DNA of 64,000 nucleotides from Pirellulales bacterium (lineage in GTDB: Bacteria > Planctomycetota > Planctomycetia > Pirellulales > JALHPA01): contig JANRLT010000007.1 of assembly GCA_033762255.1 (NCBI GenBank), positions 62,001 through 126,000 on the forward strand. Reading direction: 5' to 3'. Positions 24,159 through 25,515 of this stretch are shown here, piece after piece. The translations under genes were made by a program, and so were the position numbers. Numbering within the stretch: the stretch's first letter is position 1; every line of letters begins with the position of its first letter. The notes under the pieces were generated by a model that did not search any database, was not told where the DNA came from, and saw nothing but the letters and a program-made list of their open reading frames with translations.

Positions 24159-24827
24159 CCACGACACAGCCCGATGGTGGCAAAACAACGCGGAAAACGC
24201 GGATGTTTTATCATTCTCGACAGGATGCCACGCCTGTTGACCGACGGCAATTAACGTATCCGTGACGCACATCCCGCGTGATGCCGCTCGCCTGTGCCGG
24301 CCCGTTACGTGTTCCTTGCCGGACTGTCCACGATTCAACTCCGCGCGCGGTCCATCATGTACTAATCACTCTTGTCGGAGCGCATGCGCGGCAACAGAAT
24401 TAGCGCGCTGAAACAGCTTTTACGCATCGATAAAATCAACCACCCAGGGATGACACAAAACATAGCAGGGAAAAAATCTTTGTGATAAATGCAAAAATCA
24501 TGTTGCCAAAAATGAGAGAATCGTTAATGTTACTAGCAGGTGTGGAGATTTTGTTGGTTGTCAGGACATGCTTGTTGGCCAAAACTACATGTCGCGGCAA
24601 TCAATAAACGTTTGGTTGGGATGTTGGATGATCGCGGCTTAGGCTATTCGATGATCCCTCCCGTCCCGACGCCCATGATCCCCCGACAATTACCCCGCGC
24701 TTGGTATTCTGGAGGAATGCTATTCGCGGAGTCGGTGGAGGAATGGATCTTCGTCCCAGGATATTGTGCGTCAGGTTCGGACTGGGCAGCGTGTGCCTGG
24801 TGGGCTTGACGCCGTTGGTTTCTCATT
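24159..24827. other. Intergenic region before the Ala/Lys peptide gene
   Basis: The open frames here (for example 24540-24809) have Trp/Cys-rich translations with no domain signal, so none is called. The region is unusually long for a leader. It should contain the promoter of the Ala/Lys peptide gene, but no confident -35/-10 pair is assigned. Confidence 0.4.
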
Positions 24828-24833
24828 GGAGGA
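24828..24833 (+). promoter_or_regulatory. Strong ribosome binding site for the Ala/Lys-rich peptide
   Basis: GGAGGA lies 7 bases before the GTG at 24841. It decides the start of the short gene, because the only nearby ATG (24834) is in another frame. Confidence 0.75.
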
Positions 24834-24840
24834 ATGTACC

Positions 24841-24933
24841 GTGGCTAAAGCGAAGAAGAAGGCTGCCAAGAAGGCCGCATCCAAGAAGGCTGCTCCCAAG
24901 AAGGCTGCAAAGAAGGCCGCCAAGAAGAAGTAG
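24841..24933 (+). CDS. 30-residue Ala/Lys-rich peptide, histone H1-tail-like
   Basis: GTG start, 30 residues, TAG stop. Apart from Met1, one Ser and one Pro, the peptide is only Ala and Lys, in blocks such as KKAAKKAASKKAAPKKAAKK. Composition is about 50 percent Lys and 40 percent Ala. It looks like the C-terminal tail of histone H1, or of the bacterial H1-like proteins Hc1/Hc2, without any globular domain. The mixed use of AAG/AAA and GCC/GCT/GCA codons argues against a simple DNA repeat. A strong ribosome binding site precedes it and a hairpin terminator follows 95 bases later, so it looks like a complete transcription unit. Binding to nucleic acid is inferred from charge. Confidence 0.7.
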   Translation: MAKAKKKAAKKAASKKAAPKKAAKKAAKKK

Positions 24934-25028
24934 TTTCCTTGACGTGCTCTGTGCAAAATCGGCCTTCCCTACCCACCGTCAGGTAGCTGGGAACTGCCAT
25001 TTTGGCACCTTTATGACACGACGAGAAA

Positions 25029-25062
25029 GAGCCGCCCGGGCTGTACGCAGCCTGAGCGGCTC
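25029..25062 (+). terminator. Terminator hairpin after the Ala/Lys-rich peptide gene
   Basis: A 15-bp stem with two mismatches (GAGCCGCCCGGGCTG to CAGCCTGAGCGGCTC) closes on loop TACG. The tail TATTGCATTTG has only a weak T run. It ends the unit that begins at 24841. Confidence 0.7.
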
Positions 25063-25298
25063 TATTGCATTTGGGGGGTAGTTCTCAGGCCAGAAATAGT
25101 GCTTTCTTACATTTTGAATGATGCGGTTATCATCTTGGGTGGACCTGGGCGTATTCAGTAAAATAGTTATGTGAAATTAGCTGGGTTAAAAGCCAGAAAA
25201 CCCCCGGACTTTATGTGATATATTCTGCAGAAAGGGATGATTTACCATGGTAAGGCATGGTAGCGGCTAAAAATAGGTAGCCATATTCCACTACGTGA

Positions 25299-25515
25299 CG
25301 CGGTTCATCAAATTTTAGCCCCTAGAATGCAAATACAAGTTCGGCGACGGAACGTCGCCGCTACGGGCTGCAAGTCCTCGCCAATAACATCGGCGGCTTT
25401 GTAAGAGTCGCGGTTGATCAAATTTTAGCCCCTAGAATGCAAATACAAGTTCGGCGACGGAACGTCGCCGCTACGGGCTGCAACTCCTCGCTAATAACAT
25501 CGGCGGCTTTGTTAA
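25299..25515. repeat. Tandem duplication of a 110-bp intergenic unit containing a REP-like hairpin
   Basis: Two direct copies start at 25299 and 25409 with CGCGGTTCATCAAATTTTAG and CGCGGTTGATCAAATTTTAG and run to GGCGGCTTTG plus a few bases. Only a handful of mismatches separate them. Each holds a GTAG-headed hairpin (25343-25367 and 25453-25477), which on the minus strand reads CCCGTAGC then GGCGAC, loop GTTCC, GTCGCC. Each also ends with the CATCGGCGGCTTTG motif related to pieces at 3256 and 3397. Confidence 0.88.

Follow-up and report, generated by a model that had tools for sequence, protein, structure and literature searches.

A conserved gene for a 30-residue Ala/Lys peptide in Pirellulales, with a tagged 3' hairpin and a probable histone H1 tail-like role

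The window, i.e. the whole stretch of 64,000 nt analysed here, spans 62001-126000 on contig C7 in a genome of 5.47 Mb in 72 contigs, and carries on its forward strand a short gene whose translation is MAKAKKKAAKKAASKKAAPKKAAKKAAKKK*. Among the 30 residues of this peptide, 15 are Lys and 12 are Ala, with one each of Met, Ser and Pro, giving a calculated pI of 11.1 and a charge of +14. The upstream neighbours, on the same strand, encode an esterase and a GDSL-like protein, and downstream, on the opposite strand, lies a tyrosyl-tRNA synthetase gene. A longer frame is possible, a mechanical ORF finder starting at GTG 24766 (55 aa); since the Shine-Dalgarno sequence and the N-terminus are conserved (GGAGGA-N7-GTG-GC), the start was placed at GTG 24841. 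The start region, GGAGGAATGTACC-GTGGC, shows the features by which members of the family were recognised, namely a Shine-Dalgarno leader, a GTG or ATG start and an Ala/Lys frame without globular domain. The Ala/Lys composition, the coordinates and the distances to the GGAGGA site and to the hairpin given in a preliminary description of this locus were found to be exact, and the ribosome binding site that it attributed to the gene, GGAGGA 7 nt before the GTG, belongs to a conserved leader. Between the peptide gene and the tyrosyl-tRNA synthetase gene, a tandem direct repeat occupies 25292-25511 (two 110-bp copies, 95% identical) and includes the inverted repeat CGGCGACG-GAA-CGTCGCCG and GCCCCTAGAATGCAAATACAAG.

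The hairpin begins 95 nt after the stop codon and reads AGAGCCGC-C-CGGGCTG-TACG-CAGCCTG-A-GCGGCTCT, that is 8 + 7 bp with one internal C/A mismatch. The features of the locus are collected in Table 1.

Table 1. Features of the Ala/Lys peptide locus, in window coordinates
Feature	Position	Strand	Basis
Candidate sigma70-type promoter TTGCCA-16-TAATGT, inside AAAATCATGTTGC...	24503..24530	+	AAAATCATGTTGC shared with genome G001
Putative long 5' untranslated leader	24537..24840	+	Conserved promoter position; about 300 nt, versus about 190 nt in relatives
Shine-Dalgarno GGAGGA	24828..24833	+	Sequence; 7 nt 5' of GTG
30-aa Ala/Lys peptide gene, GTG start	24841..24933	+	Sequence; type 1 of the family; homologues with same leader and element
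Conserved single-stranded tag (A)CGACGAGAA	25018..25027	+	Exact ACGACGAGAAAG match at 25018-25029
15-bp hairpin, intrinsic-terminator-like, stem start AGAGCCGC	25028..25063	+	Fold; covariation of the outer 8 bp in relatives
Weak T-rich tail ATTGCATTT	25064..25072	+	Sequence; most relatives have a strong T-run

Relatives of the peptide were sought with a degenerate DNA pattern for KKAAxKKAA, which gave matches in 16 of 39 relatives, some being tails of larger proteins and several being free-standing short genes with the same leader; in eight free-standing relatives, comparison of the downstream sequence revealed the same element after the stop codon. Many matches to this pattern were discarded as tails inside larger unrelated proteins (sulfatase, porin-like), and a strict peptide pattern, AKKAAKKA, failed to retrieve the window gene, picking up a topoisomerase I tail instead. 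Across relatives, the element consists of (A)CRACGAGAMAG leading directly into a hairpin with A-U and G-C as its first pairs, followed by an A and T's. The tag, (A)CRACGAGAM, is near-invariant and lies unpaired on the 5' side of the hairpin, and the stem covaries strongly. In nine hand-picked elements, whose alignment is independent of any model, all cells of the outer eight pairs are standard and six pairs change on both sides. In 96 elements aligned with the covariance model R1, an alignment that leans to the structure of the model, 99.7% of the cells of the outer 8 bp are paired, with 159 double changes, and the covariation score reaches 0.603 versus 0.178 for shuffled alignments (0 of 500 shuffles as high; slid controls below 0.11). 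Conservation of the tag positions in these 96 elements is 87 for C4, 93 for A6, 95 for C7, 92 for G8, 96 for A9, 95 for G10 and 96 for A11.

R1 was built from nine elements, covers 57 positions and contains no protein information. The window element (25016-25072) scores 58 bits against it (E 2.7e-10), partly by construction, the window being one of the nine training sequences; the same element was also found independently by pattern search. A search of 146 Pirellulales genomes with R1 gave matches in 98, mostly one or two per genome and two in the genome of the window. Of 110 matches inspected, 105 lie behind an Ala/Lys (or Lys/Ser/Thr/Arg) gene that has a Shine-Dalgarno sequence, the composition departing at two of these loci (L076, L124) and the frame being broken by a stop at another (L067). 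The five matches with no gene upstream (L139, L142, L144, L146, L149) stand at the weak end, with E values from 1.8e-4 to 2e-3, and every inspected match better than E = 1.8e-4 has an Ala/Lys gene upstream. An independent scan of 84,980 species with a strict pattern returned 23 matches, all in planctomycete genomes, with an Ala/Lys ORF upstream of at least 21 of them. No further ORF combining the composition with a Shine-Dalgarno sequence was found in 328 kb of strand-sequence around these loci; this composition-plus-SD scan gained the L165 gene and lost the L157 gene. Under strict filters, R1 matches among 392 genomes of the phylum occurred only in Pirellulales; the named matches of the other searches are Pirellulales, Planctomycetaceae or other planctomycete genomes. 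In several genera of family f16 and in some members of f3, type 1 genes (see below) end in ordinary terminators without the tag and lie beyond the reach of R1, so that the tag is not essential everywhere. In the sister order, represented by f21, GTG-start Ala/Lys genes occur behind a leader of the same type; eight were inspected, and in at least three of them a diverged tag (ATAACGAGTAAG, ACAACGAGTGG, ACAACGAGAAA) precedes a hairpin, from which it follows that the element may be older than Pirellulales. Of the sister-order loci, L195, L200 and L201, which R1 does not report, carry the diverged tags AACGAGTAAG, AACGAGTGG and AACGAGAAA before hairpins, behind Ala/Lys genes of 60-92 aa.

The second tag and hairpin in the genome of the window (G000:C21:199.2k, minus strand) lie behind an unannotated 32-aa paralogue, MATKKAAKTPAPKRSPKKAATKKPAKKTAKKS, which has its own Shine-Dalgarno sequence, GAGGAG. 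This gene was not known before the element search; the element thus predicted a second gene, and the protein MATKKAAKTPAPKRSPKKAATKKPAKKTAKKS confirmed it. The earlier remark that genes of this size are seldom annotated is supported. Two types of gene can be distinguished. Type 1, that of the window, has a GTG start, the leader GGAGGA-N7, a protein beginning MAKKK... and the stem AGAGCCG or AGGGCCG. Type 2 has an ATG start, the leader AGGAGCCA, a protein of the form MATKK...RSPKK... and the stem AGGCCGG. Leader, stem and, in many genomes, promoter are type-specific, each type keeping its own. Among 115 non-redundant pairs of gene and element, 70 have a GTG start and 45 an ATG start, with peptides of 17-134 aa and stop-to-element spacers of 16-243 nt. 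At the level of genome sequence, this comparison establishes two paralogues as the usual complement, kept across Pirellulales, with conserved leaders and the 3' element in common. In family f8 only one gene is present, of about 20 aa (MAKKKKKAAKKVAKKKKGHG). The broken frame of L067 (genome G096) is that of a type 2 gene that starts with ATGGTA and meets an in-frame TAG about 14 codons later, its 3' element being intact, and this locus is a decaying or truncated copy. Several peptides of family f18 (L152, L155, L165, L167, L169 and others) have a cluster of Cys residues at their end (CCCK, CAPCCK, CMCRCK, KCCCGK), suggestive of a tail variant with metal or thiol linkage.

On the 5' side, the 13-nt sequence AAAATCATGTTGC is identical in G001, a genome of the same family, where it lies at a promoter conserved across the order, AAAAnnTGTTGCA-N-CGTACAACTAC. 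The promoter is about 220 nt 5' of the GTG in G001 and farther, about 340 nt, in the window, where the -10 region (TAATGT) is weak and only loosely like that of relatives. With a strict pattern, the order-wide promoter was found about 220 nt before the GTG in 32 of the 70 type 1 genes, and the f8 genes have a common promoter, CTCTTGACAGTTTTC-N-CACAAC, at about -120 to -200. The start pattern GGAGG-N5-9-GTGGC occurs in 89 of the 146 genomes of the order and the reversed control pattern in 0, the former count being a lower bound as the gene of the window itself escapes this type 1 pattern. Between promoter and Shine-Dalgarno sequence, the leader showed no conserved sequence, the enriched upstream 7-mers being promoter elements. 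The sequence GGAGGAATG is present three times within 24711-24836 (126 nt of the leader) and five times in the whole window, where 0.6 would be expected; its third copy is the Shine-Dalgarno sequence of the peptide gene, and a 4-codon frame, MYRG, starting at the ATG of this copy would overlap the GTG. Pairing of the 3' tag with the 5' leader was also considered, complements of the tag (CTCGTCG/TCTCGTC) being found 13 times versus 1.9 expected by simple shuffling; their positions are not consistent and some of them come from close relatives, and for this reason the pairing was not accepted.

Taken together, these data make the frame at 24841-24933 almost certainly a genuine gene, conserved and equipped with a 3' element of its own, its excess over chance resting on the recurrence of gene, leader and hairpin across the order. 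The preliminary description had taken the variation of codons for the same residue as an argument for selection; synonymous codons do vary within this frame, and it is the relatives instead that settle the question. Its proposal of a real short gene is thus borne out by a family conserved in peptide, leader and hairpin, and the search of relatives for absence or frameshift that it had called for yielded a single frame-broken copy, L067.

As to the 3' element, the T-run would make it an intrinsic terminator and hence the end of the transcription unit. The terminator announced earlier for the window gene has the 15-bp hairpin, 95 nt downstream, and relatives with T-runs in its favour; the T-tail of the window itself is weak and a consensus terminator scan did not list the site. 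The element could be a plain terminator and nothing else, with the tag kept by descent or as a general feature of planctomycete terminators, and its GC-rich stem, its T-run, its position at the end of a transcription unit and the plain terminators of some family members are in agreement with this reading, to which we leave a substantial, though minor, share of the probability. Against it, the 11-mer CRACGAGAMAG has eight copies in the genome of the window (16 for the reversed control) and only two of the eight are joined to the hairpin, both behind Ala/Lys genes, R1 giving about two matches per genome. Furthermore, the tag is near-invariant in the 96 elements despite a drifting stem sequence and spacer length, and the whole f8 hairpin, loop included, is nearly identical across many genera. 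A terminator motif common to the order was rejected, tag and hairpin being confined to Ala/Lys peptide genes. The common signature after the stop codon suggests a dedicated, possibly shared control, and we tentatively propose, as a conjecture of less than even standing, that the tag is a regulatory recognition site. That a factor acting in trans, perhaps the Ala/Lys peptide, recognises the tag-hairpin and co-ordinates expression of both paralogues with growth or replication is more doubtful; if true, the histone mRNA stem-loop would have a functional counterpart in bacteria.

The best overall explanation, which we hold to be probable, is a small gene with its own transcription, encoding a polycationic peptide equivalent to a stretch of the histone H1 C-terminal tail and having a role in the nucleoid. 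SPKK is a classical minor-groove DNA-binding motif of H1 and H2B. The SPKK motifs of type 2 and the KKAA composition are as in H1 tails, with a pI above 11; in the genome of the window, the 15 Lys and 12 Ala of the 30 residues and the SPKK of the paralogue agree with a predicted binding and condensation of DNA, with the caveat that composition-only peptides can converge. The KKAA composition, the paralogue's SPKK and the precedents of tails and H1-like proteins point by analogy to a minimal H1-tail-like polycation for nucleoid compaction, and DNA condensation is, with some reserve, the favoured main role of the peptide. Alternatively, the polycation may mainly bind RNA or ribosomes, or serve as a counter-ion of polyphosphate. 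Disordered tails rich in Lys bind both RNA and DNA, the sequence has nothing to tell the targets apart, and the H1-like AlgP of Pseudomonas is reported to organise polyphosphate granules (PMC9239181); the minor-groove motifs of the type 2 peptides speak against this reading, which appears rather unlikely.

That the locus is a regulatory RNA in which the Ala/Lys frame is incidental would fit the long leader and the hairpin, which in some families is conserved better than the rest. In f8, 41 codon differences are synonymous and 34 non-synonymous, about 19% synonymous being expected if random (pairwise, non-independent counts on short sequences), and in f13 the pairwise counts, small as they are, are 3 and 0. 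Since the codon changes lean synonymous and the start, Shine-Dalgarno sequence, composition and frame are kept, the frames of the family are very likely coding, as judged from sequence comparison; the kept composition extends to Ser and Pro and the length varies in frame from 17 to 134 codons, which leaves the RNA reading very improbable. An antimicrobial or toxin-like peptide, suggested by the small size and positive charge, is equally hard to credit for a core gene of an order, kept as house-keeping genes are; neither a signal peptide nor a gene for export or immunity was seen, and the peptide has no hydrophobic residues for an amphipathic helix.

In the nucleoid role that we prefer, the peptide would be made in quantity, would bind nucleic acid through its charge and fold into a helix on binding, and could compact or bridge the nucleoid alongside HU, which is present in the genome of the window, much as the tails of H1, Hc and AlgP do. 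The hairpin would act as terminator and as stabiliser of the 3' end, and the tag as a recognition site, for a protein or an RNA, dedicated to the mRNAs of Ala/Lys peptides. A family-specific tag on the hairpin, a second paralogue and a conserved promoter are features of the locus beyond those of the preliminary description. Planctomycetes are known for condensed nucleoids, yet proteins as small as 18-30 aa, nearly all H1-tail sequence and apparently without family model, are kept across an order as a core gene family hidden by gene-calling length limits, and the 3' element offers a simple finder for genes that composition or gene callers miss. The question raised is that of an invariant tag before the terminator hairpin of two chromatin-like peptide genes and almost no other gene.

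The resemblance to a free H1 or Hc tail noted earlier holds for the composition, and neither Pfam nor NCBIfam has a model that recognises the window peptide, which has neither PF00216 (HU) nor another Pfam domain. Rfam gave no family either: nothing in the window matches above the gathering score, and the matches elsewhere in four loci bearing the element are at chance level. Proteobacterial H1-like proteins measure about 200-350 aa. PF07382, NF038052 and NF038053 gave no match for the window peptide, and long relatives score far below the curated cut-offs. The chlamydial Hc1/Hc2 proteins (PF07382 HC2; NF038052) share the Lys/Ala-rich composition of H1-like tails, and Hc2 has repeats varying in number (PMC2848022). 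In contrast, the best long relative reaches only E 0.14 with HC2 (12.7 bits, cut-off 40) and E 6 with NF038052, the window peptide is six times shorter than Hc2, and here two paralogues carry a tagged hairpin. Burkholderia NF038053, Bordetella BpH1 and Pseudomonas AlgP are likewise free-standing AAKKP-type tails without globular domain; with NF038053, one 89-aa relative obtains E 0.0011, its 19 bits staying below the cut-off of 80. H1-like proteins provide experimental precedents (PMC2848022, PMC9239181), as do Lys/Ala tails of bacterial HU and topoisomerase I. The tails of HU (HupB, HupS) and topoisomerase I of Actinobacteria have the same Lys/Ala composition, and DNA compaction or processivity depends on them (PMC5676037, PMC7398561), whereas the Pirellulales tail is a gene of its own. 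In the genome of the window, the HU proteins have no long tail and topoisomerase I has one: L001 (G000:C7:53245-56267, minus strand), about 7 kb before the window, is topoisomerase I-like and has a Lys/Ala tail at its C-terminus (AKKSAKKAAKKTSVAKKAAK...), like that of Actinobacteria.

In the open PMC papers, no description of planctomycete H1-like or Lys-rich small proteins was found. In stress arrays of Rhodopirellula baltica, the unnamed RB6849 (101 aa, pI 12.8) and RB5409 (97 aa, pI 12.7) are repressed together with ribosomal genes and an HU-like gene (PMC2754498), and both have the right size and charge to be candidate members of the family. The metazoan histone mRNA 3' stem-loop offers an analogy only, as a family-specific hairpin with a conserved flank on the mRNAs of basic chromatin proteins; the element described here, in contrast, is bacterial, its stem covaries and its T-run is that of an intrinsic terminator, and no homology is implied. 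On these comparisons, we file the peptides as an H1-tail-like kind without existing family model, the gene-specific tagged hairpin being the less expected part.
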